Below, piece by piece: positions 4,060 through 31,740 of a DNA stretch of 34,450 bases (positions within the stretch are counted from its first letter, which is position 1; each line of letters begins with the position of its first letter). A program made the translations under genes and the position numbers. The stretch comes from Deltaproteobacteria bacterium (GTDB taxonomy: Bacteria > Desulfobacterota > Syntrophia > Syntrophales > Smithellaceae): positions 1-34,450 of the forward strand of contig JANYAY010000047.1 in assembly GCA_025361065.1 (NCBI GenBank). Direction: 5' to 3'. The notes beneath the pieces were generated by a model that was not told where the DNA came from, did no database searches, and worked only from the letters and a program-made list of their open reading frames with translations.

Positions 4060-4095
4060 TAGAGCCCTTCCTTAATAGAATGAGGAAGGGCTCTA
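4060..4095. terminator. Strong bidirectional terminator between convergent genes
   Basis: A 13-bp perfect stem, TAGAGCCCTTCCT (4060-4072) against AGGAAGGGCTCTA (4083-4095), has a 10-base loop. It lies between the plus-strand cysteine-rich gene and the minus-strand hydrolase-like gene. It is flanked by A-rich sequence on the left and T-rich sequence on the right, so it can serve both strands. Confidence 0.8.
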
Positions 4096-4132: not shown

Positions 4133-5104
4133 TTACTTTGTGGCGCGTCTGAAATCATAAAACCAGTCAGCCTTCATATGATTTTCATGTTGCTCTCCGT
4201 AAAGATAGGTCTCATAATTTTTGTCGCCATCCAGATAAAACTTCATCCAGGAGGTTATATATACTTTGGCGTGCATTTGATTGACTGGGTCACCAGAATT
4301 GATCCAATCCGTATGGGGAAAGTTTTTGAAATAAGCGAGCGCCTTCTCGAAAGAAAAATCTTTGTACATACTGACAACTTTGCCCGGAGGCGAGTTATCA
4401 TCGTTTCTGCCGGCGTAACATATTGTTGCCGATTTAATATCGTCCAGATCGTAACCTGAGTCCATATAGGGAGCCAATGCCTGAGTGGACTTCACTTCCG
4501 AACCTAAATTGGTTGCGGCGAGTAACGCTCCGCCTCCGCCCTTACCGTAGCCCATGAGTTGGAGTTTGTTAATATCGACAAGACCTTTAATTTTGCTATC
4601 GCTGCGGATATTTTCGGTTTTGAGCATCGCGATACCGGCTTTATGGGCATCTGTCCATAGCGGAGTATTGCCCATGACATCTGTAGGCGTCATGGCAAAG
4701 ATGATATATCCGTGGGTGACAAGGTGGTAGGCAAGCCACCTTATGTCGTCATGAGAATTAAAAAAGCCGGACATCAAAGTTGTTGCGGCAAATGGACCCT
4801 TGGCCGTTTCACACGGGTACCACACTTCCGCTGCTAAGTAAGCTGGATTGGGGGGTGGTTTGTAGGAACATCTGGTAAACGCGCCCTTCAGTGCTGGATC
4901 AACTGTGACAGGCAAAGTTACGGCAGGGGCAGTTGCAGCAGGAGTAGCTGCTGTAGGCACGTCTGTAGCAGGTACAGCAGCAGGAATGGTTGCGGCAGGC
5001 ACAGTTTTGACAGGTTCCGCTGCGGTTGCATATGCCCCTGCAAAAAGCATAGTCAGAATACCTAATAAAGCCAATGCTCTAGGAAATAATTTTTTTTCTT
5101 TCAT
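4133..5104 (-). CDS. Secreted cutinase/PETase-like alpha/beta-hydrolase fold protein lacking the nucleophile serine
   Basis: The 323-residue protein starts after a good ribosome binding site (AGGAGG, inside the palindrome GAGGTTAACCTC). It has a signal peptide (about 1-29), an Ala/Pro/Thr/Val-rich linker (about 30-68) and an alpha/beta-hydrolase domain. The order of motifs follows the cutinase/polyester hydrolase (PETase-like, dienelactone hydrolase clan) family: AEVWYP, SGFFNSHDDIRWLAYHLVTHGY, MGYGKGGGGALLAAT, GRNDDNSPP, FPHTDW and a WMKFYLDGD C-terminal helix. The nucleophile elbow G-x-S-x-G reads G-Y-G-K-G, with Gly187 (codon GGT) where serine is expected. The acid (Asp235 or Asp236) and histidine (His264) positions are kept. 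It should therefore be inactive as a serine hydrolase, unless it uses another chemistry or serves as a binding protein. The linker suggests it is displayed away from the membrane. Confidence 0.75.
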   Translation of the reverse strand: MKEKKLFPRALALLGILTMLFAGAYATAAEPVKTVPAATIPAAVPATDVPTAATPAATAPAVTLPVTVDPALKGAFTRCSYKPPPNPAYLAAEVWYPCETAKGPFAATTLMSGFFNSHDDIRWLAYHLVTHGYIIFAMTPTDVMGNTPLWTDAHKAGIAMLKTENIRSDSKIKGLVDINKLQLMGYGKGGGGALLAATNLGSEVKSTQALAPYMDSGYDLDDIKSATICYAGRNDDNSPPGKVVSMYKDFSFEKALAYFKNFPHTDWINSGDPVNQMHAKVYITSWMKFYLDGDKNYETYLYGEQHENHMKADWFYDFRRATK

Positions 5105-5324
5105 AATGAGGTTAACCTCCTACTTTTAGAAATAGTTTAGATTGGTTTTAATCGATCTATGGACAATATTGTTTATACTTATACTTTTTTTATCAAAAAT
5201 CAATATTGAATTTCGGCTGAAAAAAATTCGCCTTGAAATATTTTTCTGCTTTAATCTAGCATCGTAAAATTTTTATACCAATTTGTCAGCGAAAGGTATA
5301 ATACATCAAATCACAGGAGTTAAA

Positions 5325-5738
5325 ATGAACATAATAAAAAAAATAGCGGTTTATTTTGCCCGGAAAGAATTTTGCAGAAATGCAATATCCGAGAAGGCTG
5401 ATCTGAGTGTTTTTGAGAAAAAACTTACAGCAAAAGTAATTACCGGTTTAGTTTTGATTTTTGTTAGTTATCTGATAGGTCTCCCTACTGCTGTTATTAT
5501 AGGTGGAATTGCAGGAGCTAAATTTAATGCTTCAATTGCCGCTTTCATTATTACTGTGATTTATGGTATTTCTTGGCTTATTCTTATGCTGGGAGCGTAC
5601 CTTGCCGGCCCTAAATATGGAAAGGCGATAAGCCGTTGGGCAGTGCGGGTTGTTTTGGAAAAAATACTCGGGGCTGAGGCGAAAAAAATCGCGGCTTTAC
5701 CGGTGCAAAATCCGCAAAGATCGGACACAAAAAAATAA
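5325..5738 (+). CDS. Small two-helix membrane protein of unknown function
   Basis: The start at 5325 is chosen because AGGAG (5315-5319) precedes the ATG; the in-frame TTG at 5283 has no such site. The 137-residue product has a basic N-terminus, one membrane segment around residues 36-62 (ITGLVLIFVSYLIGLPTAVII), and a second around 68-92 (SIAAFIITVIYGISWLILMLGAYLAG). An amphipathic, lysine-rich C-terminus follows. I do not recognise the family. It runs in the same direction as the lipid cluster and ends 39 bases before the first acyl carrier protein gene. It could be the first gene of that operon or an unrelated neighbour. A short GGCG...GCGCC hairpin in the gap is too weak to settle this. 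Confidence 0.65.
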   Translation: MNIIKKIAVYFARKEFCRNAISEKADLSVFEKKLTAKVITGLVLIFVSYLIGLPTAVIIGGIAGAKFNASIAAFIITVIYGISWLILMLGAYLAGPKYGKAISRWAVRVVLEKILGAEAKKIAALPVQNPQRSDTKK

Positions 5739-5777
5739 GGCGTTTTTAAAAGCGCCGGATTAAAAATGAGGTGTTAA

Positions 5778-6050
5778 ATGATTCAGATTGAAGAATTAGT
5801 TAGTGAACTTAAAGTTAATATTATTAAAACACTGGGTTTGATAGACGTTACTCCTGAAGACATTAAAGATGATGCTGTGCTTGTTGGCGGCGATACGGGA
5901 ATTGATTCTATTGATGTGCTGGAACTGGTAATGATGATTGAAAAAGATTATGGCGTTAAAATTGACAGCAAAGAACTTGGCGCCAAAGTATTCGCGTCAG
6001 TACGCGCGCTGGCTACTCATATTTTCAATAATCAGAGGCAGAAAGCTTAA
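5778..6050 (+). CDS. Acyl carrier protein (first of two in the lipid cluster)
   Basis: This 90-residue acidic four-helix protein has the phosphopantetheine motif G-I-D-S-I-D, with Ser44 as the attachment site. It should carry the growing acyl chain as a thioester in the cytoplasm. The sequence is diverged from housekeeping AcpP, which has DSLDTVELVMALEE after the serine; here it reads DSIDVLELVMMIEKDYGV, still a clear match. GAGGTG precedes the ATG. It opens the radical SAM/ketosynthase cluster, and a second, quite different carrier protein (8921-9193) is in the same cluster. This suggests two dedicated carriers, perhaps for different stages or partner enzymes. Confidence 0.88.
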   Translation: MIQIEELVSELKVNIIKTLGLIDVTPEDIKDDAVLVGGDTGIDSIDVLELVMMIEKDYGVKIDSKELGAKVFASVRALATHIFNNQRQKA

Positions 6051-6078
6051 TACCAAGGCGCTTTCTTAGGTTAACTTT

Positions 6079-6105
6079 GCCGATCTCGCTTTTAGCGGGA
6101 TCGGC
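6079..6105 (+). terminator. Hairpin between ACP and B12 radical SAM genes
   Basis: GCCGATCTCGC (6079-6089) pairs with GCGGGATCGGC (6095-6105) with one mismatch and a five-base loop, 28 bases after the carrier protein stop. No T-run follows, so it may be an attenuating or mRNA-processing hairpin rather than a full terminator. The gap to the next gene (6051-6232) shows nothing else clear. Confidence 0.35.
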
Positions 6106-6232
6106 TCATCCAATCACACTAAAGCGTAACCAGTCGGAGTCTCCTTCTTGGAGAATTGTTATCCATTGGAATCGAAATGGTATAAGGTGGCAAACAAAAA
6201 CAATCCTATAGAATTTTGAGCATTTTACCCCT

Positions 6233-7585
6233 ATGACGAAAGTATTGCTAATCTCTGCAAACACTTTGAGAATGCCCTATCCGGTATATCCACTGGGGCT
6301 TGACTATGTTGCCGGTTCTCTGGATTCCCGTTATTCGACAAAAATAGTAGATTTGAACACTGTTTTAGATCTGGATGAAGTGGGTGCGATTATTCGAGAA
6401 TTTTCTCCCGATTTTGTCGGGATATCAATTCGAAATGTAGATAATACCGATACAATGAATAGTCGCGCTTTTTTATCCGATTATCAAAACCTTGTACGCG
6501 AGATTCGGAAAAATTCACAAGCGAAATTGATATTAGGCGGTAGCGGTTATACAGTTTTTCCTGTTGAATTTTTACAGGCGCTGGATGCCGATTACGGCAT
6601 TGCCGGCGAAGGAGAAAGATTATCTTTACTTCTGGATGCATTGGAAAAGAATGAAAGTGTGCAATTCATGCCCGGAGTTGTGACTAAGGAGACTGTAACT
6701 GTTTCTTATGATCCATGGGGCGGTGACGTCCAAAGACGTTTTGATCCCGAAGGTGTAAACACCGGTTTTTATCTTTCCTACGGGGGGATGCTTAACCTGC
6801 AAACAAAAAGGGGCTGTCCCTTCCGCTGCAGCTATTGCACCTATCCGCATATTGAAGGCAGCCGGATGCGGTTTTTCCCCGCCCGCGAAATAGCCCAAAA
6901 AGCCCGCGAATTGCAGGATGCCGGAGCTAAATATATATTCATCACCGATTCCGCCTTTAATGCCAGTTATGACCACAGCAGGCTTGTCGCCGAGGCTTTT
7001 ATTGCAGCTCACGTATCGATTCCTTGGGGTGGATTCTTTGCTCCCACCATATCTCCCGCAGATTATTATAAGTTACTGGCTGATGCGGGGCTCACGCATG
7101 TGGAATTTGGGACGGAATCTTTATCCGATACAATGCTCACAAATTTGCAAAAACCTTTTGCCTCCCGAGATGTTTTTGCCGCTCATAAGCAAGCGCTGAA
7201 AGCTAATCTGCATATTGCCCATTATTTCCTTTTAGGTGGTCCCGGTGAAAACGCTCAGACACTTCAGGACACACTAAATGGAGTGGATACACTGGAAAAA
7301 TCAGTTTTTTTCTTTTTTTGCGGTATTCGGATTTACCCTCATACCGCCCTATATGATGTAGCCTTGAAGGAAGGCCAAATTTCGCACTCTCAAAGTCTTT
7401 TGCATCCTGTATTTTACTCCTCCCCGCATATATCTGGCAAAGAAATTATGCAAGCAGTAGAGAATCATGCCAATGGCCGTTTTAATTGGATAGTTGGTTC
7501 CGGTGAAAATAAAGCAACCCGTGTTTTGCCCAAGCTCTATGAACGGGGATTTACAGGGCCACTTTGGGAACATTTGATTCAGTGA
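6233..7585 (+). CDS. B12-binding-domain radical SAM protein of the lipid cluster
   Basis: This 450-residue protein has an N-terminal cobalamin-binding-type Rossmann domain (about 1-140: VLLISANT, YPLGLDYVAGSL, FVGISIRN, LILGGSGYTVFP). A radical SAM barrel follows, with the 4Fe-4S motif C195-PFR-C199-SY-C202 and a downstream FITDSAFN strand. The classic DxHxxG cobalamin ligand is not present, as in many class B radical SAM enzymes. Family members do methylations, cyclisations and other difficult C-C chemistry. In anammox and Desulfobacterota clusters, similar genes sit beside fatty-acid genes and have been proposed to act in ladderane-type lipid formation. Here it lies between a carrier protein and a deacetylase, so a carrier-bound acyl substrate is likely (inference). 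No clear ribosome binding site precedes the ATG. Confidence 0.82.
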   Translation: MTKVLLISANTLRMPYPVYPLGLDYVAGSLDSRYSTKIVDLNTVLDLDEVGAIIREFSPDFVGISIRNVDNTDTMNSRAFLSDYQNLVREIRKNSQAKLILGGSGYTVFPVEFLQALDADYGIAGEGERLSLLLDALEKNESVQFMPGVVTKETVTVSYDPWGGDVQRRFDPEGVNTGFYLSYGGMLNLQTKRGCPFRCSYCTYPHIEGSRMRFFPAREIAQKARELQDAGAKYIFITDSAFNASYDHSRLVAEAFIAAHVSIPWGGFFAPTISPADYYKLLADAGLTHVEFGTESLSDTMLTNLQKPFASRDVFAAHKQALKANLHIAHYFLLGGPGENAQTLQDTLNGVDTLEKSVFFFFCGIRIYPHTALYDVALKEGQISHSQSLLHPVFYSSPHISGKEIMQAVENHANGRFNWIVGSGENKATRVLPKLYERGFTGPLWEHLIQ

Positions 7586-7595
7586 GGGCGACTTG

Positions 7596-8405
7596 ATGAA
7601 ACGAAAGCTGCTTTCTAGCAATCCGGCTGTAGTTACGGGAATAGTTCTCCTGGCTGTCAGCGCCCTGGTATTTGCGGTTAATCCTCTATTTGCTGCGGCT
7701 ATTGCCCTTTTTTATATTCTTCTTTGCGTCAGCGCATGTTTTTTGCCGCAAACCAATTTTCTCCTGCCCGAGATCAGCCGTGGTCAAACCGGCAAAAATC
7801 TGGTTGCGCTCACTTTTGACGATGGCCCCGCCGAACCGACAACAAGGCAAATACTTGATTTGCTCGACAAGTATTCAGTTAAGGCGACTTTCTTTGTTTC
7901 CGGTATCAATGCCTTGCGCTATCCCGAAATCATCAAAGAAATAGTTTCCCGTGGCCATAGTATTGGTAATCATTCGTTTAGCCATAATCCTTTTTTGATG
8001 CTGACAAACTTTAATAATCTGTATCGGGAGATTTCTATGGCTCAGGAAATATTACGGAAAATGGGTATAAACACAAAGGCATTTCGGCCGCCGGTAGGTA
8101 TTGTGAACCCCAAGCTGTCCCCAATTCTGGATAAATTAGGGATGTTTTGTCTGACCTTTAGTTGTCGCGCTTTTGATGCCGGTAATTTCCATGTAAAAGA
8201 AATTGGTTCTAAAATCCTGAGAAAAGTTAAGGCCGATGATATTATCCTGCTTCACGATGTGCCGCCCCGCAGGAAAGAAGACAGTGCGTTTTTTTTGCCG
8301 GAGATTGAGCGGCTGCTTAACGGAATTATTGCTAAAGGTTTATGTATTGTTCCTCTTGCCGATTTGATCAATCAAGAAGTCATGAACAGGAGTGATAATC
8401 TTTAG
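7596..8405 (+). CDS. Membrane-anchored NodB-type polysaccharide deacetylase family protein
   Basis: The start is placed at ATG 7596 with GAGGG seven bases upstream; the TTG at 7593 is the alternative. The 269-residue protein has two hydrophobic segments near the N-terminus (about 10-50) and a NodB domain. Motif 1 is TFDDGP (Asp75/Asp76), motif 2 is NHSFSH (metal ligands His126 and His130), motif 3 is FRPPVG, and the last motif is ILLHDV. All metal-binding and catalytic positions of carbohydrate esterase family 4 appear intact. Known members remove N- or O-acetyl groups from peptidoglycan, chitin or exopolysaccharide, usually outside the membrane. Its place inside a fatty-acid cluster is unusual. 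It might deacetylate a lipid-linked sugar head group or an intermediate, but the substrate is not visible from sequence. Confidence 0.85.
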   Translation: MKRKLLSSNPAVVTGIVLLAVSALVFAVNPLFAAAIALFYILLCVSACFLPQTNFLLPEISRGQTGKNLVALTFDDGPAEPTTRQILDLLDKYSVKATFFVSGINALRYPEIIKEIVSRGHSIGNHSFSHNPFLMLTNFNNLYREISMAQEILRKMGINTKAFRPPVGIVNPKLSPILDKLGMFCLTFSCRAFDAGNFHVKEIGSKILRKVKADDIILLHDVPPRRKEDSAFFLPEIERLLNGIIAKGLCIVPLADLINQEVMNRSDNL

Positions 8406-8507
8406 GAAATAAATAATCATTGACCTAATAAAATATTTTTTGATTGAAAAAATAATCAGTGATATATAATAAAATTACTGATATGCATTTTAATTGGCAA
8501 GCGAACA

Positions 8508-8897
8508 GTGAAGGGATATGATTTGAAAGATTCAAGGCAATTGCTCAGGGAGGTTAATTCAATTACTCCCAATAAGATCGAAGCGTTAGCTTATGTGCCA
8601 ATTGATTCGTCCTGGTTTCTGGGTCATTTTCCCAATGAGCCGATTCTTCCGGGGATAGCTTTAGTTGATATGGTCCAGCAGGCCATTATTCAGGATGCCG
8701 TTGCCAAGGGCGAAGAAATTACTTTTTTAGCTCTAAAAAGAGTTAGGTTTACCCAACCTGTTCGTCCCGGTGAATCTTTAAAGATGACTGTAACTCGGGG
8801 GGAAGCAGGCGAAGAAACCATATTTACCTTTAAAGTAGCTCATGAGCAAAATATTGTCTGCAGCGGGCAAATCGTCGCGAAGAAGAAAAAAAGATAA
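8508..8897 (+). CDS. FabZ/FabA-type hotdog dehydratase (3-hydroxyacyl-ACP dehydratase)
   Basis: The protein is 129 residues from GTG 8508. A TTG at 8523 with AAGGGA in front is an alternative start. The hotdog motif GHFPNEPILPG is present with catalytic His40. The second catalytic position, Glu in FabZ (VEAMAQ), is Asp54 here (LVDMVQQ), which is the FabA choice. The length fits FabZ (about 140-150) better than FabA (about 170). It should dehydrate 3-hydroxyacyl-ACP to the enoyl form. The FabA-like Asp raises the possibility of an added double-bond shift, but one residue cannot prove this. It lies 24 bases before the second carrier protein, with which it probably works. Confidence 0.85.
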   Translation: MKGYDLKDSRQLLREVNSITPNKIEALAYVPIDSSWFLGHFPNEPILPGIALVDMVQQAIIQDAVAKGEEITFLALKRVRFTQPVRPGESLKMTVTRGEAGEETIFTFKVAHEQNIVCSGQIVAKKKKR

Positions 8898-8920
8898 ACA
8901 AATATATAAGGAGGGAAGAG

Positions 8921-9193
8921 ATGCCTGAAACAAATGATATACAGGGCATTATAAGGAAGGTAGCTGAAATTATCATTGGAGAACTGAAGCTGGAAGATGT
9001 TACAGTAGATACGTTCAGTCCGGAGATGGATTTGGTTGATGAATTGGGTATTGACAGTATGGATTTGGCGACAATCGCTCTGGTTCTGCAAGATGAATAC
9101 AAAATTGTGATTGACGAAGACGATTATCCGAAATTAAAATCCATTCGCATGATAGCTGAATATATTTCCGAAAAACTTACCGCGAAGGGTTAA
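8921..9193 (+). CDS. Acyl carrier protein (second of the lipid cluster)
   Basis: The 90-residue acidic protein has the motif L-G-I-D-S-M-D-L with Ser46 as the phosphopantetheine site. A strong ribosome binding site (AAGGAGGG) precedes the ATG. It differs clearly from the carrier at 5778, with a longer N-terminal helix and a Met in place of Ile or Leu after the serine. It lies between the dehydratase and the first of two sister radical SAM genes, so it may be the form on which radical chemistry takes place (inference). Confidence 0.88.
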   Translation: MPETNDIQGIIRKVAEIIIGELKLEDVTVDTFSPEMDLVDELGIDSMDLATIALVLQDEYKIVIDEDDYPKLKSIRMIAEYISEKLTAKG

Positions 9194-9213
9194 TTTACAG
9201 AAGATAATTGTCT

Positions 9214-10299
9214 ATGACCATTAACAATAAAACAGTTTCTGAAACAGCCAAACCAAAATTCGCCGAACTTTTAGCAAATCCTGCGGTGAGAGCTCGCTGG
9301 GAAAAAGTAAGAAAATATTTTTTTCTGCGGGAATCCACGTACGACATGAGTAACCGTTGCAATATACGATGTGACGGCTGCTATTACTACGAAGGAGAAA
9401 AGCAGTTTGCGCCGGAGAATTTGGACGCACAGGCATGGCGCAAGCTTATGCAGGATGAAAAGGCCCGCGGCATTACTTACGTGGTATTGGCCGGCGCTGA
9501 ACCGTCACTGGTACCGGAGCTCCTCGATGTTTGCTATTCGGAAATGCCGCTGGGAAGTATTGCCACCAATGGATTTAAAAAAATACCGGAATCTGTCGGT
9601 TACAAGATTCATATTTCAGTTTGGGGAAACGATGAAACCAGCCTGCGCGTGAGAAAAGCCAGGAATCTTTTGTCAAAACAAATCGAGAACTATCAGAATG
9701 ATCCACGTGCTGTCTTTGTTTACACATTTACACGGGAAAATATTGAAGAAGCATATGAAGTTGCCGGAAAGCTCGGTGCGAGCAGTTGCAAACTGACTTT
9801 TAACGTATTTTCTTCTCCGGTAGGTTATACCGGTCCTTTGCGTCATAACGAAGAGTCGCTTCAAAAAGTTCAGTCAACAATGATCGCGCTACTTAAAAAA
9901 TATCCGCAAAATGTTATTTTTTCCGTTTACAATGCTGTAGCCCATGCGCACAAGGGATCCTTGCATGATCTCTACAGTTGTTCTTATCCCCGGCAAAACA
10001 GTTCACAGGACATCGGGTTAGGAAGATCATTCCGGCAATATCGAACGGACTTAAACTGGGACAGGTCGGTTGCCTGCTGCGTGCCGGATACGGACTGTGC
10101 TGATTGCCGGCATTATGCTGCTGGTTCGGCAGTTGTTACCGCCCGACTTTACCGTCATGTAAGTAATCTGGCCACATTTCAATCATGGCTTGATTATGTA
10201 GATACTTATCTGGCGGTTTGGGTAATGGGTTATGAAAAGGGAAAAAATCTCTGCGGGGAGTTGGTCAGCCCACCTTGTTTTGCAGACAGAGCCGGCTGA
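9214..10299 (+). CDS. Radical SAM protein A of the lipid cluster, with C-terminal cysteine cluster
   Basis: ATG 9214 is preferred over the in-frame TTG at 9208. The 361-residue protein has a radical SAM core with C49-NIR-C53-DG-C56, then a glycine-rich AGAEPSL segment that probably binds SAM and an ISVWGNDE strand. Near the C-terminus there is a cysteine-rich patch (CSYPR, then ACCVPDTDCADC), which could hold a second iron-sulfur cluster, though it does not match a textbook SPASM spacing. The next gene encodes a clear paralogue with the same order of motifs, so this pair arose by duplication. Known radical SAM enzymes of this shape mostly modify peptides or small molecules. Here the setting of carrier proteins and ketosynthases points to an acyl chain as substrate (inference). 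Confidence 0.82.
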   Translation: MTINNKTVSETAKPKFAELLANPAVRARWEKVRKYFFLRESTYDMSNRCNIRCDGCYYYEGEKQFAPENLDAQAWRKLMQDEKARGITYVVLAGAEPSLVPELLDVCYSEMPLGSIATNGFKKIPESVGYKIHISVWGNDETSLRVRKARNLLSKQIENYQNDPRAVFVYTFTRENIEEAYEVAGKLGASSCKLTFNVFSSPVGYTGPLRHNEESLQKVQSTMIALLKKYPQNVIFSVYNAVAHAHKGSLHDLYSCSYPRQNSSQDIGLGRSFRQYRTDLNWDRSVACCVPDTDCADCRHYAAGSAVVTARLYRHVSNLATFQSWLDYVDTYLAVWVMGYEKGKNLCGELVSPPCFADRAG

Positions 10300-10334
10300 T
10301 AAAAGATATCGATAACTGTAAAAGGGCAGTCTGA

Positions 10335-11333
10335 ATGATAACTATAAGCTCATTGTTGGATAAAGAATGGCACGAACGTTATAAACGCATCGCCAATCTT
10401 AATATTCGCAGTTCCATATATGATGTTACCAATAGATGCAATTTGCGTTGCAAAGGATGTTTTTTCTTTTCTTCCGGTGAACATGAGGCAGCCCGGGAAG
10501 AAATGGATATAAAAAAATGGGAGAATTTTATTGACAGCGAAAAGGCACGCGGTGTCAACCTGGCCATTTTAATCGGTGGTGAGCCGACACTATGCATGGA
10601 TCGGGTGGAAGCTTTTTACAAGCGGCTGCCAACTTATTGCGCCTCTAATGGACTCATCAAAGTCGACCGTGCAAAATTTCCGGATATGATGGTGGGAATT
10701 TCTTTGTGGGGCGACGGTGAAGATGAAAAGATTCTCCGCGGTCGCGATACTTTTGCCATTTCCAGTGCCAATTATGCCGGAGATCCTTATACCTATTATC
10801 TCTATACGATTACTCCGAAGCAATTAGGGAAAATAGAAACCATAATCAGAAAAATTGCAGATGTCGGATTGAAAGTGCATTTGCAGCTCTTGTCGAACGA
10901 TGAGGGTGTTGACGGCTTTTCCTGGAAGGAAGGCGAACTTGCAGATTTACGCCACGAAATGGATGAGGCACTGGATAAATATCCGCAGACTGTAATTTCC
11001 AGCAAATATTACCATGAAGTAATCACGTCAGGACAAATGCTGGGACGTACTTTTGGCTGGCCGGAATGTCCTTCCGTAACTGAGGCGCTGGACACAAGAT
11101 CGCCGCGGCCACGCCGTTTGATTCATTTCGCCCGCTGGGCTTCCGATTTAAAGACCGTTCATCGCTGCTGTACCTCGGCAACACGCGATTGCTCCACTTG
11201 CAAAGATGGCGCAGCACACATGAGCTGGATTATGGTGAATAAACAAAGTCACATCAAAACAACCGGGGATTTGCAAAACTGGATCGAAATCTATGAGATG
11301 TTTGCTAAGCTGTATCGTCTTATTCCCTGGTAA
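10335..11333 (+). CDS. Radical SAM protein B of the lipid cluster, paralogue of the preceding gene
   Basis: The 332-residue protein carries C35-NLR-C39-KG-C42, an IGGEPTL glycine-rich motif, an ISLWGDGE strand and a C-terminal cysteine patch (HRCCTSATRDCSTCKDG). These match protein A block by block: YD.(S/T)NRCN, EKARG(I/V), (A/S)NG(F/L)(K/I)K and GDP.. . The main differences are a shorter N-terminus and a shorter middle region. It follows its paralogue by 35 bases. Keeping two copies with full cysteine sets suggests two successive or hetero-dimeric radical steps. No specific reaction can be assigned. Confidence 0.82.
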   Translation: MITISSLLDKEWHERYKRIANLNIRSSIYDVTNRCNLRCKGCFFFSSGEHEAAREEMDIKKWENFIDSEKARGVNLAILIGGEPTLCMDRVEAFYKRLPTYCASNGLIKVDRAKFPDMMVGISLWGDGEDEKILRGRDTFAISSANYAGDPYTYYLYTITPKQLGKIETIIRKIADVGLKVHLQLLSNDEGVDGFSWKEGELADLRHEMDEALDKYPQTVISSKYYHEVITSGQMLGRTFGWPECPSVTEALDTRSPRPRRLIHFARWASDLKTVHRCCTSATRDCSTCKDGAAHMSWIMVNKQSHIKTTGDLQNWIEIYEMFAKLYRLIPW

Positions 11334-11357
11334 TACTTAAGTTGCATTTATGTTTTG

Positions 11358-11523
11358 AGAGCTTTGCATAACTAAATTAAACTAACAATTGTGTCATTCC
11401 GTGCAAGCGAAGCGCGACGAAGAGCCTGCCCCGTACTCGATACGGGGGAATCCAGTATTCTCAATTGCTTCCTGGATACCGGCCTTTGCCGGTAAGACAA
11501 TTAGAGTGGTTGTGCAAAGCTCT
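11358..11523. repeat. MITE-like palindromic repeat element (166 bp) between radical SAM and ketosynthase genes
   Basis: The ends are an inverted repeat matching at 14 of 15 bases: AGAGCTTTGCATAAC (11358-11372) and the reverse complement of 11509-11523. Inside are further stems: CCCGTA/TACGGG (11430-11446), ATCCAG/CTGGAT (about 11450 and 11472-11477), and ACCGGC/GCCGGT (11478-11493). The inner part starts with GTCATTCCG and contains GGGGAATCCAG and CTGGATACCGGC. This is the dispersed GTCATTCC...GGAATCCAG intergenic repeat type common in deltaproteobacterial and related genomes. No target duplication is obvious. A short reading frame over it (11389-11580) is not a gene. The exact 11-mer of the right end recurs at 16572-16582. 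Confidence 0.7.
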
Positions 11524-11581
11524 TATTTTATCAATTTCCTCAAGTGCAAAATGCGGGTAATTCTATATTTTCGGGACTAAT

Positions 11582-12832
11582 ATGACTTCTAAGAAAGCAG
11601 TGATTTTAGGATATGATGCTGTTTCCTCTTTGGGTACAGATTTAGAAATTCAATGGCAGCGTGCAGAACAGGGCGAATGCGGTATTGCCAATCTGACCAG
11701 GTTCCCAATGAACGCCGATTTCCCGGTGCGCATAGCCGGTGAAGTGGCCGAAGTTGACGGGCGTCCCTATCCTTTTTTACAGCCCCGGGAGATGGCTCAC
11801 TGGACATCGCCGATTTTCAAATATGCCCTGCTGGTGGTTCACCGCGCTCTGGCTAAAAGCAAAATTATCATTACTCGGGAGATGGCGCCGCGTGTGGCCA
11901 TAACTTTCAGTTCAGCCGTAGGCGGCCTGGATGCCGTGCTCCACGCCGACAGACTGATGAAAGCGGAAGGCAAGATGCCGCATCCCTTTACCAATCCGAA
12001 TTCCTGCATTAACATGGTCGGCGGCAAGGTTTCTATTCTTACAGGCGCTACCGGGCCGATCTGTTCAACAATTACCGCTTGTGCCACAGGTATTACGTCG
12101 CTGATCATCGGCGAGATGTTCTTGCAGAGGGGGCTGGCGGATGTTGTTATTGCCGGCGCCGTTGATTTTCCCCTGGTTGAACCTATTGTTGCCGGGTTTG
12201 CCACAATGAACGGCGCGTACCGGCCGAAAGAAGGCCAGCCCGCAGAATTGCCGCAAAAAACCAGCCGGCCCTTTTCCATCAATAGAAGAGGCTTCGTTGT
12301 TTCCGAAGGCGCCGGGTGTATTATCCTGACATCTGCTGAATTTGCCGAAGCTCACGGTTTGCAGCCTGACTGTGAATTGGCCGGTTGGGGAATGACTTCG
12401 GATGCCAGCCATTTTGTTTCGCCCAATTTATCAACTGTGCAGCGATGCATGGAAGAAACTATCATTCATGCCGGATTGCAGCCGGAAGATATCGATGCTG
12501 TTAATGCTCATGCCACATCGACAAGAGTGGGCGATAAAGTGGAAGCCGCCGCCCTGAATAATATTTTCGGCAAAAATATTCCGCCGGTTTCAGCAAATAA
12601 ATCACAATTGGGACACGCCATGGGCGCGTCGAGCGCCATTGAAGCAATCCTGGCCATGGAGGGAATGGTCAGGGATACATTGCTCCCGACAATTAATTAT
12701 CTTCCGGACCCCGCAATTGAGATTGATTGTGTCGCTGAAGGAGCCAGAAAATTGCGCCAGGAGTTTGTACTGAAGAATGCTTTTGGCTTTGGCGGATGCA
12801 ATTCTTGTGTTATATTGCGCCGTATCTCTTGA
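11582..12832 (+). CDS. Beta-ketoacyl-ACP synthase (FabF-like), first of two
   Basis: The 416-residue thiolase-fold protein has a complete FabF/KAS-II-type catalytic set: Cys167 in TACATG, His310 in NAHATST, and His345 in NKSQLGH with Lys340. The C-terminal GFGG.NS motif is present. It should condense an acyl-enzyme with malonyl-ACP. NAHATST replaces the more usual NAHGTST. It is followed 18 bases later by a second ketosynthase. Both keep the catalytic Cys, so this is not a ketosynthase/chain-length-factor pair, which lacks it in one partner. The ribosome binding site is weak. The gene starts 58 bases after the repeat element. Confidence 0.9.
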   Translation: MTSKKAVILGYDAVSSLGTDLEIQWQRAEQGECGIANLTRFPMNADFPVRIAGEVAEVDGRPYPFLQPREMAHWTSPIFKYALLVVHRALAKSKIIITREMAPRVAITFSSAVGGLDAVLHADRLMKAEGKMPHPFTNPNSCINMVGGKVSILTGATGPICSTITACATGITSLIIGEMFLQRGLADVVIAGAVDFPLVEPIVAGFATMNGAYRPKEGQPAELPQKTSRPFSINRRGFVVSEGAGCIILTSAEFAEAHGLQPDCELAGWGMTSDASHFVSPNLSTVQRCMEETIIHAGLQPEDIDAVNAHATSTRVGDKVEAAALNNIFGKNIPPVSANKSQLGHAMGASSAIEAILAMEGMVRDTLLPTINYLPDPAIEIDCVAEGARKLRQEFVLKNAFGFGGCNSCVILRRIS

Positions 12833-12850
12833 ATAACAGATGGTAGATTT

Positions 12851-14116
12851 ATGAAAGCACCGCAAAACAGAAGAGTATTTGTTATAGGTTATGGGGCGGC
12901 AACTCCCCTGGGCAGGACGTTTGAATCTACATGGAAGCGCGCCGTCAAAGGCGAAGCCGGTTTCCGGAAAGTAACGCGTTGCAAAGTGGAATCGGCTTGC
13001 GATATTGTCGGTGAAATACCTGATTGGTATCCGCTGGAACTTGATTTTACCGATGCCAAAGAAGTTTATAACTGGAATGCCTCTTTCGTGATTCTGACGA
13101 TGGCAGTCTGCAAGGAAGCAATTGAGCATTCCGGAATTGTCATCGACAGACAAACTGCGCCGCGGATGGCCTGCCTTATCGGTTCGGCACTCAACGGCAC
13201 CGATGCCTTTCGTATTGCCATGCACGACCTGGAACATCGCGGACCGCTAAGGGTAAGCCCTTATTTGCTGCCGAATCTGTGTGCCAATTTACCTTCCGGG
13301 AAAGCGGGAATGCTCCTGAAATTTACCGGGCCGATATTTTCGCCGCAGGGCGCCTGCGCTTCGGGTAACTATGCCATCGGCATCGGAGCGAGAATGATCC
13401 GTGACGGCGATTGTGATTTTGTTCTGGCCGGTGGCGCTGATGCCCCCATTCTGCCGGAGCTGATTCATGGTTTTGCCAATATGAATGCGACGATTAAAGT
13501 TCATCCGCCGGATCGTGCCTGGGCCGATCCGGCACAGGCTTCCCGGCCTTTCAGCGCCGATCGCCGGGGGTTTGTCCTCTCGGAAGGGGCGGGTGTTGTA
13601 GTTCTGGCCGCCGAAGATGCCATTTGCGCTCATGGTCTTACACCCAAAGCGGAAGTGCTGGGTATTGGCTGGACTTCCGATGCTTATCATTACACTACTC
13701 CCAATCCGGCAACGATTATCTGCGCTATGCGCCAAGCTCTTGATGATGCCGGATTGCAACCGGAAGATATTCAGTATGTCAATGCCCACGGTACATCCAC
13801 ACCCAAGGGTGACCGTACGGAAATAAAATGCCTGCGCGAAGTATTCGGTAAAAAAATGGAGAAACTTCCGGTGTCCTCCAATAAGTCGCAGTTGGGGCAT
13901 ACGCTGGGAGCAACGGCGGCCATTGAAGCTGCTTTAACCATTGAAGGTATGAAGAGGGGTATTATCCTGCCGACAATCAATCATGTTCCTGATCCCGAAT
14001 TAGCAGGCATTGATGTTGTTCCCAATGTTGCCCGCAAACAGAAATATGAGATTGCGCTTTCTAATGCCTTCGGTTTTGGCGGAACAAATTGCTGTGTTGT
14101 TTTTCGGGGAGTATAG
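12851..14116 (+). CDS. Beta-ketoacyl-ACP synthase (FabF-like), second of two
   Basis: The 421-residue protein has Cys169 in GACASG, His313 in NAHGTST, His350 in SNKSQLGH and GFGGTN near the C-terminus, so it is a full condensing enzyme. It is a paralogue of the preceding gene but clearly diverged, including around the nucleophile (ACASG against ACATG) and in the region between 120 and 165 that helps shape the acyl pocket. Two active ketosynthases suggest different chain-length or substrate ranges, or a hetero-dimer. The thioesterase gene starts 2 bases after the stop, so the genes are tightly coupled. Confidence 0.9.
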   Translation: MKAPQNRRVFVIGYGAATPLGRTFESTWKRAVKGEAGFRKVTRCKVESACDIVGEIPDWYPLELDFTDAKEVYNWNASFVILTMAVCKEAIEHSGIVIDRQTAPRMACLIGSALNGTDAFRIAMHDLEHRGPLRVSPYLLPNLCANLPSGKAGMLLKFTGPIFSPQGACASGNYAIGIGARMIRDGDCDFVLAGGADAPILPELIHGFANMNATIKVHPPDRAWADPAQASRPFSADRRGFVLSEGAGVVVLAAEDAICAHGLTPKAEVLGIGWTSDAYHYTTPNPATIICAMRQALDDAGLQPEDIQYVNAHGTSTPKGDRTEIKCLREVFGKKMEKLPVSSNKSQLGHTLGATAAIEAALTIEGMKRGIILPTINHVPDPELAGIDVVPNVARKQKYEIALSNAFGFGGTNCCVVFRGV

Positions 14117-14118
14117 CC

Positions 14119-14598
14119 ATGAAGCCCAAGCCCTTTAAGCCGGAAATATTCAATAATGATCAGCATTTTGTGCGTGATTCTTCAGCGGGGCTGGTCTGGC
14201 ACCTCTGTGAGTACCGGACCTTATATGCGGATACCGACCGGTCAGAAATTGTTTATCATGCTAATTACCTGCGCTATTTTGAATTCGGCCGGACGTCTTT
14301 AATGCGCGATGTTGCTTATTCCTACAAGGAAATTGAACTAAGCGGCTACGTTTATCCGATTATCGATATGGGCATAAGTTTTTATCAGCCGCTGTATTAT
14401 GACGACCTGATGTATATACATACAAGGCCGACACATCTGGAGCGCGTGCGTTTGCAGTTTGATTACATAATAACACATGCGGAAAAAGGCCATATAATTT
14501 GCAAGGGCTTTACCAAGCATTGTGCTTTAAATGCGGCAGGCAATCCTGTGGCTGTCGATCCGAAAACGGTTCACTTATGGAAAACGTTTCCCACTTAA
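14119..14598 (+). CDS. YbgC-like hotdog acyl thioesterase
   Basis: ATG 14119 is chosen, with GGGGAG upstream; the in-frame ATG at 14089 lies inside the ketosynthase gene. The 159-residue protein matches the 4-hydroxybenzoyl-CoA thioesterase/YbgC family: YADTDRSEIVYHANYLRYFEFGR, with the nucleophilic or base Asp in DTD (Asp38/Asp40) and His47. It would release an acyl chain from a carrier protein or CoA. Because a PlsY-type acyltransferase ends the same operon, the enzyme may instead edit or recycle blocked chains. It overlaps the next gene by 22 bases. Confidence 0.82.
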   Translation: MKPKPFKPEIFNNDQHFVRDSSAGLVWHLCEYRTLYADTDRSEIVYHANYLRYFEFGRTSLMRDVAYSYKEIELSGYVYPIIDMGISFYQPLYYDDLMYIHTRPTHLERVRLQFDYIITHAEKGHIICKGFTKHCALNAAGNPVAVDPKTVHLWKTFPT

Positions 14599-15446
14599 CC
14601 TGCCCAATAAGTCAACCCTGGGCAATCAAGATATATCCTTATTTATATGATCATCATTTAGAGGGGAAAGCCGTATTTCCCGCTGCCGAAGCGCTGATTG
14701 AGCTGGCCCGGGCTGTTAAAATTAATTTCCCTCAGGCTGCTGTTAATAATTTGCGGGGCGCTGTTTTTTCGCGTTTTCTGTCCATTCCGGAGGAGGTAAA
14801 GGTTATGGCGGCATCTGTCAATATAGAGATCGACGAGGCAAATGAAATCGCCGCAGCTTTATTTACTTCTGTAAAATCGAAAACAGGAAATATTCGCCGC
14901 AGCGTTGAACATGCCCGGGTGAAATTTTCCGGAATTCAAGGTCGGCAATTGCCGGAGCATCCTTTTCGTGATTTCACAAAACTGGAAGGAGAATGCCTGA
15001 ATGTGACGGCAGCGGCTATTTATAGTGAGCTCGTGCCTTTCGGAAAAGCATATCAAAATATTTCCGGTGATTTGTCTCTTGCGCCAGCCGGCGCGCAGGC
15101 CCATATTTCCGGAGGGAATACGGAATCCGACGATGATCTGCTGGGTTCGCCGTATCCTTTTGATGCAATACTGCATATGGCCTGTGTCTGGGCGCAGCGT
15201 TTTACCGGTGTCGTCTCTTTTCCCGTTGGTTTTGCCGGAAGAACTATTTATCAAAAGACAAAAAAACAGATTACCTATCTGGGCCGGATAGTGCCGGTAA
15301 TCTTTACCCGGAAACCATTTGTTTTCGATGCCTGGATTTATGATTTGCAGGGATCTGTCTGCGAAGTAATTACCGGGATACAGATGGTGGATGTGAGCCG
15401 GGGGCGGATGAGACCGCCGGATTGGATTAAGGCGACAACCTTGTAA
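14577..15446 (+). CDS. Stand-alone polyketide-synthase-type double-hotdog dehydratase
   Basis: ATG 14577 overlaps the thioesterase end; an upstream ATG at 14499 would overlap by 100 bases and is less likely. The 289-residue protein looks like a free-standing PKS dehydratase (PS-DH). The first hotdog has DHHLEGKAVFPAAEALIELA, with His26 or His27 as the catalytic histidine. The second begins with YSELVPFGKAYQNI and has SPYPFDAILHMACVW, with Asp196 in the place of the catalytic aspartate in the usual HP.LLDAAL motif. Such domains are normally part of large polyketide or PUFA synthases. A separate gene next to a FabZ-type enzyme gives the cluster two different dehydratases, which fits repeated or positional unsaturation of the chain (inference). 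The protein as a whole is divergent. Confidence 0.7.
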   Translation: MENVSHLTCPISQPWAIKIYPYLYDHHLEGKAVFPAAEALIELARAVKINFPQAAVNNLRGAVFSRFLSIPEEVKVMAASVNIEIDEANEIAAALFTSVKSKTGNIRRSVEHARVKFSGIQGRQLPEHPFRDFTKLEGECLNVTAAAIYSELVPFGKAYQNISGDLSLAPAGAQAHISGGNTESDDDLLGSPYPFDAILHMACVWAQRFTGVVSFPVGFAGRTIYQKTKKQITYLGRIVPVIFTRKPFVFDAWIYDLQGSVCEVITGIQMVDVSRGRMRPPDWIKATTL

Positions 15447-15454
15447 GGGAAACT

Positions 15455-16045
15455 ATGGGAAAGCTGATATTAGTTTGTGCTATTGCTTATCTGGCTGGTT
15501 CGGTTAATTTTGCCATCATTTTTTTTCGGCTTACCGGCAAGACTGATCCGCGGTTGAGTTTCAGTGGCAATGCCGGAACGACAAATGTTTACCGTCAGGC
15601 AGGTATAGTTTGGGCGGGGATTGTTTTTCTGCTGGACATAGGCCGGGCAATAGCCGTCGCCGCTCTGGCAGTTTACTTCCTGCCTGCATCTTTAGTTCCG
15701 TGGGCGGGCTTCTTCCTTGTTTCGGGAAACAGTTATCCCTGCTTTCATAGATTTTACGGCGGCAAGGGTGTGGCCAACTATCTGGGCTTTTCGTTATTTG
15801 TTGTACCCTGGGCGGCCGGCCTTTCCGCAATAGCCTGGCTTGCTGTTTATGGTATCTTTCGTATTCCGTTTATTGCCTCTTTCTTTATGATATTTACTTT
15901 GGCAGTAGGACAGGCCTATTTTTTCGGTTGGGCATTTGGTGCCGTAGCCGGTGCAACCGCAACATTTGCGCTTATCTTATTAAATCACAGAAAAAATATT
16001 AGCGAAATCTGGAAAAGCAGAAAGACGATAAGGCCGGCTGAATAA
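15455..16045 (+). CDS. plsY: PlsY-type acyl-phosphate:glycerol-3-phosphate acyltransferase
   Basis: The 196-residue membrane protein has about five hydrophobic segments and all three PlsY motifs: SGNAGTTNVYR (about 37-47), GNSYPCFHRFYGGKGVANY (about 90-108), and NHRKNI near the C-terminus. PlsY moves an acyl group from acyl-phosphate to position 1 of glycerol-3-phosphate, the first step of phospholipid synthesis. Two positions differ from the usual form: SGNPGATN reads SGNAGTTN, and the His of GH.FP..L.FKGGKGVA is Asn. A copy at the end of a lipid cluster suggests a specialised enzyme that prefers the cluster's acyl product. Whether the genome has another, standard plsY cannot be seen. AAGGGA precedes the ATG. 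Confidence 0.88.
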   Translation: MGKLILVCAIAYLAGSVNFAIIFFRLTGKTDPRLSFSGNAGTTNVYRQAGIVWAGIVFLLDIGRAIAVAALAVYFLPASLVPWAGFFLVSGNSYPCFHRFYGGKGVANYLGFSLFVVPWAAGLSAIAWLAVYGIFRIPFIASFFMIFTLAVGQAYFFGWAFGAVAGATATFALILLNHRKNISEIWKSRKTIRPAE

Positions 16046-17759: not shown

Positions 17760-20534
17760 ATGTCTAAGAAAAATCTTGATTCCACCGCCATCGGAGGTCA
17801 GATGGATGTCATTGCCAATGGTCGACGGCAGGAGGATCTGCTTAGAGTGGGGGCTTTGCAGACCGCAATATTCAACAGCGCGAACTTCTCGAGTATTGCC
17901 ACGGATGCGAAGGGCGTCATCCAGATATTCAACGTCGGCGCCGAACGCATGCTGGGCTACACCGCCGCCGAAGTGATGAACAAGATTACCCCGGCCGATA
18001 TTTCCGATCCGCAGGAAGTGATAGCGCGCGCCGAAGCTTTAAGCATCGAGCTTGCCACCCCGATCGCCCCGGGATTCGAGGCCCTGGTCTTCAAAGCCTC
18101 GCGCGGGATCGAAGACATCTATGAGTTGACTTACATCCGCAAAGACGGCAGCCGCTTCCCGGCAGTCGTATCGGTTACCGCCCTGCGCGACGATCAGGAC
18201 GCCATCATCGGTTACCTGCTGATCGGCACCGATAATACTGCACGCAAAGAGGTTGAAGAGGAACGGATAAAGCTTGACCAGCGCCTCCGCGACCAGCAGT
18301 TTTACACGCGCTCTCTCTTTGAATCCAATATCGACCCGCTCATGACCACCGATCCGCAAGGCATCATCACCGACGTCAACAAGCAGATGGAGGCACTCAC
18401 CGGTTGTACGCGTGATGAACTGATCGGCGCACCTTTCAAGAAATACTTCACCGATCCGAAACGGGCCGAGGCGAGCATCAAGCAGGTGCTGGCTGAAGGC
18501 AAGATCACCAACTACGAACTCACCGCACGCTCCTGGGACGGCAGTCAGACAGTGGTGCCCTACAATGCGACCACCTTCTATGACCGGGACAGAAAGCTCC
18601 AAGGCGTGTTCGCCGCCGCACGCGACGTCACGGAGCGCAAACGACTGGACCACGCGCTGGAAGAGGCCAAGGAAGCCGCCGAGGACGCCAACAGCGCTAA
18701 GAGCGACTTTCTTGCCCGCATGAGTCACGAGATTCGGACGCCGATGAACGCCATCATCGGTATGGCGGACTTGCTGTGGGATACATCATTGACCTCGGAT
18801 CAGCGCGAGTACGTCCGGATTTTCAAGAAGGCGGGAAGCCAGCTCCTGGACTTGATCAATGACATCCTGGATCTTTCCAAAGTGGAGTCCGGTTATCTGT
18901 CGCTCGAGAGCATCGCCTTTGATCTCGGCGAGGTCCTCGACAAGACGCTCGAGATGATGGCGATTCGCGCCCACGAGAAGGGGCTTGAGCTGGCTCTCCG
19001 CATCGCTCCGGAGATCCCCACCGAGCTTATCGGCGACCCGGCCCGGCTCCGGCAGGTCCTCATCAATCTCATTGGAAACGCCATCAAGTTTACGGAGAAG
19101 GGCGAGGTGATCGTACGGGTCGAGCCCGACCCCGAGGATGCCGCCGCCGGTGCACTGCGGTTCTCGGTGGTCGACACCGGGATCGGGGTTCCCGATCAGA
19201 CGCGCGAGTTGATCTTTGCCCCCTATTCCCAGGTCGACACCTCCACCACGCGCAAGTTCGGCGGGACCGGCCTCGGACTTACCATCTCGCGACGTCTCGT
19301 CGAGATGATGCAGGGGCGGATCTGGGTGGAAAGCCGGATCGGCGCCGGCAGTACGTTCTACTTCACTGCCCGGTTTGCGGTCGGCGGCAAGCCTCTGCCC
19401 AGGGTCCTCTCCGAGCCAATGGATCTCCAGGACGTGAAGACCCTGATAATCGACGATAACGCAACGAACCGGTTGATCCTCAGGGAGATGCTCTCGCGCT
19501 GGGGAGCCGTGGTTACTGAAGCAGAAGGGGGCGAGCAGGGAATAGCAGAGTTGCTGCAGGCAAGGCAGGGCGATCTGCCTTATACCCTGGTATTGCTGGA
19601 CTGCCGCATGCCCGGAGTCGACGGCTTCCAGGTGGCCGAACAGGTTTTTAATGAGCCCGCCATTGCCGGTACGATTATCCTGATGCTCAGTTCGGACAAC
19701 CGCGCCGGGGATGTCGCCCGTGGCCGCGAACTGGGGGTTGCGGCGTACCTGATAAAACCTGTGAAGCAGGCCGAACTGCGAGAAGCGATCCAGGAGGCCT
19801 GTGCCGGCAAGGCACCTCAGGTGGAGCATCCCGCAGCGCAAACTGGAGATTTACTGGAAGTCGTGCCGGGGCTGCGAATCCTCCTGGCTGAGGATTCACC
19901 GGATAACGTACTGCTGATCCAGGCTTACCTTAAAGGCAGCGGGTGCAGCTTGGACCTGGCCGGCAATGGTGAGGTCGCCCTGCAGAAGGTCATCTCCGGC
20001 AAGTACGACATCGTGCTCATGGATGTCCAGATGCCGGTCATGGACGGTTACTCCGCCACACGCCGGATACGTCAGTGGGAAAGCGAAAACAGAGCCAGGC
20101 CGGTTCCGATCCTGGCGCTGACAGCTCATGCGCTGCCGGAGGAGGTCCGCAAGAGCCTCGATGCCGGCTGCACGGCCCATCTTACCAAACCCATCCGCAA
20201 GGCGACGCTTCTGCGGGCCATCAAAGAGTATACCAGGGGTCGCATATGCGTCCGCGTGGACTCTAGTCTTGCGGAGTTGGTTCCCGGTTTCCTGCAAAAC
20301 CGGCACAGCGACATCGCGGCGATTGAGGAAGCACTCGAACAGGCAAATTTTGAAAAAGTGCGCATCCTGGGCCACAACATGAAGGGATCCGGCGCCGGCT
20401 ATGGCTTTGACCGTATTACGGAAATCGGCGCATTCCTGGAGCAGTCAGCCGGGCGCCAGGCAGCAGGAGAGATCCGCGAGCAGGCCGCGGATCTAGTCCG
20501 CTACCTTGATGATCTTGAGGTGGAATACGAATAG
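17760..20534 (+). CDS. Soluble hybrid sensor histidine kinase: PAS-PAS-HisKA-HATPase-REC-REC-Hpt
   Basis: This 924-residue protein has no membrane segment. In order, it has PAS 1 (about 32-165), PAS 2 (about 180-295), a coiled-coil link, HisKA (MSHEIRTP, phospho-acceptor His323), HATPase (N box around Asn440, DTGIGVP, GGTGLGLTIS), receiver 1 (Asp614 in LLDCRMPG), receiver 2 (Asp755 in LMDVQMPVMDG) and a C-terminal Hpt domain (His872 in GHNMKGSG). Each phospho-transfer residue is in place, so a full internal His-Asp-His relay is possible, as in BarA/ArcB-like kinases. The output is probably the receiver fused to a hydrolase in the next gene, 8 bases downstream. Base composition is visibly GC-richer than both flanks, which suggests acquisition by transfer. 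Confidence 0.92.
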   Translation: MSKKNLDSTAIGGQMDVIANGRRQEDLLRVGALQTAIFNSANFSSIATDAKGVIQIFNVGAERMLGYTAAEVMNKITPADISDPQEVIARAEALSIELATPIAPGFEALVFKASRGIEDIYELTYIRKDGSRFPAVVSVTALRDDQDAIIGYLLIGTDNTARKEVEEERIKLDQRLRDQQFYTRSLFESNIDPLMTTDPQGIITDVNKQMEALTGCTRDELIGAPFKKYFTDPKRAEASIKQVLAEGKITNYELTARSWDGSQTVVPYNATTFYDRDRKLQGVFAAARDVTERKRLDHALEEAKEAAEDANSAKSDFLARMSHEIRTPMNAIIGMADLLWDTSLTSDQREYVRIFKKAGSQLLDLINDILDLSKVESGYLSLESIAFDLGEVLDKTLEMMAIRAHEKGLELALRIAPEIPTELIGDPARLRQVLINLIGNAIKFTEKGEVIVRVEPDPEDAAAGALRFSVVDTGIGVPDQTRELIFAPYSQVDTSTTRKFGGTGLGLTISRRLVEMMQGRIWVESRIGAGSTFYFTARFAVGGKPLPRVLSEPMDLQDVKTLIIDDNATNRLILREMLSRWGAVVTEAEGGEQGIAELLQARQGDLPYTLVLLDCRMPGVDGFQVAEQVFNEPAIAGTIILMLSSDNRAGDVARGRELGVAAYLIKPVKQAELREAIQEACAGKAPQVEHPAAQTGDLLEVVPGLRILLAEDSPDNVLLIQAYLKGSGCSLDLAGNGEVALQKVISGKYDIVLMDVQMPVMDGYSATRRIRQWESENRARPVPILALTAHALPEEVRKSLDAGCTAHLTKPIRKATLLRAIKEYTRGRICVRVDSSLAELVPGFLQNRHSDIAAIEEALEQANFEKVRILGHNMKGSGAGYGFDRITEIGAFLEQSAGRQAAGEIREQAADLVRYLDDLEVEYE

Positions 20535-20542
20535 GAGGAAGT

Positions 20543-21871
20543 ATGCGAGTAAGATTTTGGGGCACCCGAGGATCGATTGCCACGCCGGGCCCGGACACCG
20601 TCCGTTTTGGCGGTAACACCGCATGCATAGAAGTGACAACGGACGCCGGTGCCTGTTTTATATTTGATTGCGGGACCGGAGCGCGCGCTCTCGGCGCGTC
20701 GCTCATGGCACACGCGCCCAAACCCATCTCGGCTACGATCTTGCTCAGCCACACCCACTGGGATCACATCCAGGGCTTTCCCTTCTTCGCCCCGCTCTTT
20801 GGTCCCGGGAACCGGATCACAGTCTGCGGTCCGGAAGGAAGCGGGCGCTCTCTGCGCGAAGTTCTCTCCGGCCAGATGGAGTTCACCTACTTCCCCATCG
20901 AGATCGGCCAGCTTCCGGCAACGATCACCTTCCAGGAGCTCGGAGAAGGAACGCACGAGATCGGCGGCGCGCGAATAATTGCACAGTACCTCCATCACCC
21001 GGCGATGACGCTGGGGTACCGCATTGAGGCTGACGGTGCGGCCGTTGTGTATTTATGCGATCATGAGCCCTTCTCCGAAACGTTCTGGCATGACAGCCCG
21101 GCAGCCGGGCACGCCGAATCCATCGTGCACGACGGGGACCGGCGCCACGCGCGGTTCATGGCGGGCGCCGGCCTGGTGATCCATGACGGTCAGTACACTC
21201 CGGAGGAGTATCCATCCAAAAAGAATTGGGGCCACAGTACCTACGAGTATGCCGTGGGGATGGCCGCTGCCGCAGGGGTGCGTCAACTAGTTCTCACCCA
21301 CCACGATCCTATCCACGACGATGCTTTCGTTGAGGAGGTCGAAAAGCGCGCCTGCGGGTATGCCAGGCAGCGCGGTTACAATGTACAGGTCTGCTGCGCC
21401 TTTGAAGGCCAGGATCTGGCCATAGAACCGCACGGCGTCCCGCAACTGACACCTCCGGTTCCACATTCGGGCCGTGATACCCTGCAAAGCAGACGTATCC
21501 TGGTCGTGGACGACGATCCGGACATACGCGCTCTCGCGAATAAAGCCCTGAGTCAGGACGGGCACATCGTAACCGAAGCGGGAAGCGGCAGAGAGGCACT
21601 GGCGTTGATTGATAAGCAGGCGCCCGATCTTCTCGTGCTGGACCTGCTGATGCCGGTACAGGGAGGTCTGGACGTGCTGAAGATCCTTCGTTCCAGGCCG
21701 GCAACGGCAGCTTTGCCGGTCGTCGTATTGACGGCCATGGATGACGAGGTTACCACTCGTGCCAGCTTTGAGTTCGGCGCAACGGACTACCTGACCAAGC
21801 CCTTCTCGATCCCGCAGCTCGCGGCGCGCGTGCGTGCCTGCCTCGCACGCACCGGAAGTGATGTGACCTGA
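20543..21871 (+). CDS. Metallo-beta-lactamase-fold hydrolase fused to a receiver domain
   Basis: The 442-residue protein has an N-terminal metallo-beta-lactamase domain (about 1-290) starting WGTRGSIATPGP. The metal motif is SHTHWDH (His70, His72, Asp74, His75), with His151/152, Asp173 and the late His253/254, so a two-metal site looks complete. This domain resembles the phosphodiesterase and RNase Z-like branch (PhnP, CpdA type II) rather than lactamases. A C-terminal receiver domain (about 317-440) has the acidic patch VVDDDPD, Asp367 in VLDLLMPVQGG, Thr397 and Lys419. The layout suggests hydrolysis of a phosphodiester, perhaps a signal nucleotide, switched by phosphorylation from the adjacent Hpt-ending kinase. 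The substrate is unknown. AGGAGG precedes the ATG, and its GC content matches that of the kinase gene. Confidence 0.88.
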   Translation: MRVRFWGTRGSIATPGPDTVRFGGNTACIEVTTDAGACFIFDCGTGARALGASLMAHAPKPISATILLSHTHWDHIQGFPFFAPLFGPGNRITVCGPEGSGRSLREVLSGQMEFTYFPIEIGQLPATITFQELGEGTHEIGGARIIAQYLHHPAMTLGYRIEADGAAVVYLCDHEPFSETFWHDSPAAGHAESIVHDGDRRHARFMAGAGLVIHDGQYTPEEYPSKKNWGHSTYEYAVGMAAAAGVRQLVLTHHDPIHDDAFVEEVEKRACGYARQRGYNVQVCCAFEGQDLAIEPHGVPQLTPPVPHSGRDTLQSRRILVVDDDPDIRALANKALSQDGHIVTEAGSGREALALIDKQAPDLLVLDLLMPVQGGLDVLKILRSRPATAALPVVVLTAMDDEVTTRASFEFGATDYLTKPFSIPQLAARVRACLARTGSDVT

Positions 21872-21888: not shown

Positions 21889-21907
21889 AACATCAAATTT
21901 CTGTTTC

Positions 21908-29511: not shown

Positions 29512-31740
<2,229 letters not shown>

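Follow-up and report, generated by a model that had tools for sequence, protein, structure and literature searches.

The nearest solved sequence to the protein described here is that of GlacPETase (8x6v), which is cited as active on PET (PMC13234336). One PETase motif, M5, consists of a Met following the catalytic Ser together with a C-terminal DxDxR..FxC (PMC12224614). The same source (Alam et al. 2025) also describes "pseudo-PETases", PETase-like proteins without PET activity, some of which are incomplete and miss key residues. Since these are set apart by their missing PETase activity, mostly with another substrate specificity, they differ from the case presented here, and the passages on them in PMC12224614 do not include a clade-wide change of Ser to Gly with selection acting on the remaining protein. 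Outside the bacteria, neuroligin, gliotactin, glutactin and neurotactin have an extracytoplasmic alpha/beta-hydrolase domain in which triad residues are missing, and act by binding (PMC9958613, PMC2570956). A literature search, with most subscription journals outside its reach, found no description of a Ser-less PF12740 clade.

Here, we describe a PETase-family gene without the nucleophilic Ser, encoded in a 34,450-nucleotide contig of a Deltaproteobacteria bacterium (JANYAY010000047.1), the whole of which is referred to as the window. From sequence comparison, we consider it likely that its product is a maintained, probably secreted PF12740 pseudoenzyme, with binding as the most likely role.

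Gene, protein and family assignment

The gene occupies 4133..5104 on the minus strand and encodes 323 amino acids plus a stop from an ATG start, with a ribosome-binding-like AGGAGG upstream of it (5114..5119, minus strand). An earlier note on this DNA had called the product a PETase/cutinase-like protein, and this assignment is borne out: the match to the PETase profile PF12740 scores 85.5 bits, with the cut-off at 28, spanning profile positions 38-251 of 263, and GlacPETase is the nearest solved sequence, with 204.8 bits, an E-value of 1.5e-59 and 100 identical residues among 247 aligned (40.5%). Both proteins have a GGGG elbow, the acid, the His and two N-terminal Cys (C79 and C98 in the window protein). 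This identity to a solved member implies that the window protein would adopt the alpha/beta-hydrolase fold. AlphaFold2, run on two-row alignments of the window protein and its orthologue, gave a mean pLDDT of 35.0 for the full length and of 36.4 for residues 67-323. Against the model of the bis(hydroxyethyl) terephthalate hydrolase BdeA (NF051441), the protein scores 65.7 bits, short of the equivalog score of 520. The same genome holds no further copies, the two other matches having E-values of only 0.29 and 0.41.

Read by eye from the translation, residues 1-29 (5018..5104, minus strand) resemble a signal peptide, with a basic start, a hydrophobic stretch and an AxA before EP, and the protein is probably secreted. 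A spacer rich in Ala, Pro and Thr follows at about residues 35-68 (4901..5002, minus strand), in which TRF detected no tandem repeat.

The nucleophile elbow and the catalytic triad

The elbow, G-Y-G-K-G-G-G-G, comprises residues 185-192 (4529..4552, minus strand) in the context L-M-G185-Y186-G187-K188-G-G-G-G, with the codons GGC TAC GGT AAG GGC GGA GGC GGA. In alignments to GlacPETase, LipIAF5-2 and PETase chains, Gly187 (GGT, 4544..4546, minus strand) takes the place of the Ser in GxSxG, and Asp235 (GAT, 4400..4402, minus strand) that of the catalytic acid, while His264 (CAT, 4313..4315, minus strand) aligns with the His of GlacPETase, whose own elbow reads G-F-S-M-G. The replacement of Ser by Gly that had been noticed from the sequence is thereby upheld, and the alignments to solved chains leave no alternative Ser within the elbow. 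Thus, from the residues expected of a PF12740 serine hydrolase, the window protein has the Asp and the His and lacks the Ser of GxSxG. The M5 motif is absent as well, with Lys188 instead of Met after the nucleophile position and a C-terminus reading D292-G-D-K-N-Y-E-T-Y-L-Y. Two aromatic residues are kept, F114 at the oxyanion-loop position and Y213 at the clamp position.

An orthologue with the same substitution

A scan of genome contigs retrieved a single relative, on contig PLNU01000077.1 of the metagenome-assembled genome (MAG) Syntrophaceae bacterium fen_1160. The same protein is encoded by G012:C174, so that both records were counted as one genome, referred to here as G012. This orthologue is 86.2% identical to the window protein and has the same G-Y-G-K-G elbow with the same GGT codon, and its ATG is likewise preceded by AGGAGG. 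The next relatives, G021 and G105, have Ser. The conservation of acid and His claimed in the earlier note holds in full for the window protein and only in part for the orthologue, which keeps the Asp and has Tyr (TAT) in place of the catalytic His (CAT in the window).

The first 34 residues of both proteins align with 67.6% identity over 34 codons. The spacer corresponds to a 34-residue gap in the orthologue, and its absence there weakens the suggestion that signal peptide and spacer point to surface display. The neighbourhoods are also alike: flavodoxin-like, KefC-like, PETase-like (reversed), transmembrane (TM) protein, ACP, radical SAM and deacetylase genes follow one another in both contigs, and the window is collinear with the orthologue's contig from 974 to 8405 except for the gene adjoining KefC, which encodes a Cys-rich protein in the window and a UspA-like protein in the other contig.

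Distribution and history of the Ser loss

The 155 genomes searched for the order, which are also those covered by the class search, yielded 19 PF12740 matches at E<=1e-8, spread over 13 genomes. Four of these matches are partial and do not cover the elbow; in the remaining 15, the nucleophile position is Ser in 13 and Gly in two, the window protein and its orthologue. Asp stands at the acid position in 17 of 17 and His at its own position in 16 of 17, the sole Tyr being that of the orthologue. A phylum sample of 395 genomes added nine places outside the order, several of them weak and distant matches, all with Ser. No Gly member beyond this pair was found among the 155 order genomes or, at E<=1e-40, in the phylum sample. 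The same-genus genomes G001-G003 gave no match, and neither did plasmids or phages at E<=1e-5; pattern scans of viral contigs matched 20 and 67 stretches, none of which encodes a relative. In another genome of the set (G244), two PETase domains with intact GHSMGGGG elbows lie in open frames of 676 and 708 amino acids (L075 and L081), which are possibly fusions.

In a tree built from 15 of the 19 order matches, after dropping the four short ones, the Gly pair forms one clade (100/100), sister to the Ser-bearing protein of G021 (97/98). Since the pair is nested beside a Ser protein, Ser was lost rather than gained. A long stem, 0.65 compared with 0.33 for the G021 tip, leads to the Gly clade. 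The codons also bear on the timing of the loss: the earlier note points out that GGT is one base from AGT, but all 12 Ser genes whose codon was read (of 13 in the order) use TCN, which places GGT two base changes away and makes the distance to AGT no sign of recency. The Lys after the nucleophile position occurs in the Ser relatives G021, G105, G107 and G055 too, and therefore predates the loss of Ser.

Three Ser proteins agree in 82 columns, and both Gly proteins depart from them in 20 of these, among them positions 111, 112 and 117 of the oxyanion loop and 186 and 187 of the elbow. The excess of such stem changes in the active-site loops is not significant (7/20 versus 13/62 elsewhere; Fisher p 0.24, post hoc).

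The Ser-bearing proteins of G021 (L006) and G105 (L018) have 53.6% and 46.3% core identity to the window protein, respectively, and share with it the Lys and the stretch GGGGALLA. They keep all of Ser, Asp and His, and their genes lie away from the operon found in the window.

Selection after the loss of Ser

Over the 289 codons shared by the window gene and its orthologue, the NG86 method gives a dN of 0.065, a dS of 0.520 and a dN/dS of 0.126 (0.080-0.201 in 200 bootstraps), with 0.101 for the core and 0.289 for residues 1-65. Among the neighbouring genes, the ratio is 0.098 for KefC, 0.114 for the flavodoxin-like gene, 0.128 for ACP and 0.143 for radical SAM, with higher values for the deacetylase (0.236) and the TM protein (0.367). 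Purifying selection on the Gly pair is thus as strong as on neighbouring housekeeping-type genes. Neither gene contains a stop or a frameshift. The 113 base differences between them produce 40 residue differences, whereas 2000 neutral simulations yielded a mean of 77.2 residue changes and a minimum of 63, none being as low as 40, and only 35 of the 2000 outcomes were free of stops. The low dN/dS and the deficit of residue changes relative to neutral evolution indicate that the protein has been kept after the loss of Ser. It thereby combines a missing catalytic motif with purifying selection, as in the definition of pseudoenzymes applied here (PMC10211241).

Function of the Ser-less protein and competing explanations

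The earlier note had left the choice between a recently inactivated enzyme and a binding protein built on a polyester-hydrolase fold. The former is disfavoured by the Gly and GGT shared at a dS of 0.52, by purifying selection and by the TCN codons of the Ser relatives. The latter fits a maintained protein without Ser, the binding itself being inferred from what has been retained. In such a protein, acyl-enzyme hydrolysis would be absent, and an ester-rich or hydrophobic ligand, such as a lipid, a polyester chain or a partner protein, would be bound rather than cut outside the cytoplasm. What speaks for this role is that the nucleophile of the acyl-enzyme is gone from a protein that has preserved its fold core, GGGG elbow, F114, Y213 and acid. 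The Gly state is known from two sequences, and the loss of His in one of them could be a first step of decay.

Some alpha/beta-hydrolase-fold enzymes function without the usual Ser, and the window protein might still be an enzyme with another chemistry, in which Asp235 and His264, or Lys188, activate water or another nucleophile. Asp235 and His264 are present, Lys188 follows the nucleophile position directly in both Gly proteins, and selection is strongly purifying. However, a His-dependent reaction would not be common to both proteins, as the orthologue has Tyr for His at 86.2% identity and a dN/dS of 0.126, and the Lys is older than the Ser loss, which makes this alternative unlikely. Less probable still is early gene decay, in which Ser had disappeared by the time of the common ancestor, His is now disappearing and the function is gone. 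Even though the orthologue lacks two of the three triad residues, the stem of the clade is long, the spacer and the N-terminus vary and G001-G003 are without a match, decay would hardly leave such a dN/dS across the divergence that followed the Ser loss, nor two copies free of stops and frameshifts and more conserved than any of the neutral simulations. As for a base error or an assembly artefact at codon 187, the sequence does come from a MAG and its contig is mosaic, with a junction around 10.2-10.4 kb, but the occurrence of the identical codon in another species, on an independent contig and at a dS of 0.52, and the collinearity of the gene and its neighbours with that contig, save for the gene beside KefC, render this explanation scarcely credible.

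Going beyond the maintained, probably secreted pseudoenzyme that we favour, a tentative and more specific scenario, whose chances we rate as rather low, would be that, in a lineage of the order holding the Syntrophaceae MAG, a polyester hydrolase resembling GlacPETase evolved into a secreted protein acting as receptor or carrier of an ester-rich polymer or lipid, losing Ser first and His later while the binding groove was kept. If true, bacteria would have an equivalent of the animal cholinesterase-like adhesion molecules, which belong to the animal carboxyl/cholinesterase family and resemble the window protein by analogy only. With the Ser relatives G021 and G105 at 46-54% identity, the transition from enzyme to non-enzyme can be put to the test. 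Were the protein a binder that does not cut, it would offer itself as a natural candidate module for binding polyesters or lipids without hydrolysis. The search for plastic degradation collects PETase-family genes by their sequence scores, and since the window protein passes the Pfam cut-off without a nucleophile, catalogues based on scores should check the triad.

Genomic surroundings and contig mosaic

Between the PETase-like gene and the gene converging on it lies a 15-pair hairpin (4060..4095, assigned to no strand), a possible terminator that may end both genes; with two terminator-like sites against a shuffle mean of 1.8, the region does not exceed its shuffles. On the other side, a lipid- or polyketide-like cluster extends over 5283-16045, with ACP, a B12-binding radical SAM protein and two more radical SAM proteins, a FabA-like dehydratase, two ketosynthases, a thioesterase, PS-DH and a glycerol-3-phosphate acyltransferase. 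Its radical SAM is present in 41 of 59 relatives. We considered the divergent operon (TM, ACP, radical SAM, deacetylase and others) as a functional partner and rejected it. TM, ACP and radical SAM genes occur together in all 12 relatives compared other than G012, as well as in G001, G003 and G000:C81, and in those relatives the 4-11 kb of sequence available upstream of the TM gene contain no PETase-like gene; only in the window and in G012 are the two linked. Being common in the family without the PETase-like gene, the operon is no evidence of function.

The window resembles different relatives along its length. From 970 to about 10,200 it is 80-88% identical to G012; 11,591-13,110 is 85.7% identical to G003, with 76.5% identity to G012 over 11,581-14,708; and 25,479-29,044 is nearer to G001 (84%) and G003 (81%) than to G012 (78%). 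The switch from a G012-like profile on the left to a G001/G003-like one on the right falls at 10200-10400, between two radical SAM genes. G000:C81 (L061), a contig from the same genome as the window, carries the operon's left half once more, at 71% identity. The junction is either a real recombination or transfer or the mark of a chimeric contig, and the gene is real in either case. The host of the PETase-like gene may belong to the genus of G000 or, as the left part resembles the sister lineage G012, be related to G012 instead.

Elsewhere in the window, G+C is 0.59-0.60 at 18001-22000, over a hybrid histidine kinase/response-regulator region, compared with 0.41-0.52 in the rest. A 1073-aa protein made up largely of WD40 repeats is encoded at 21908-25129 on the minus strand, and ATP synthase genes occupy 29985-34250 on the plus strand, including one for an AtpR subunit, as in N-ATPases.
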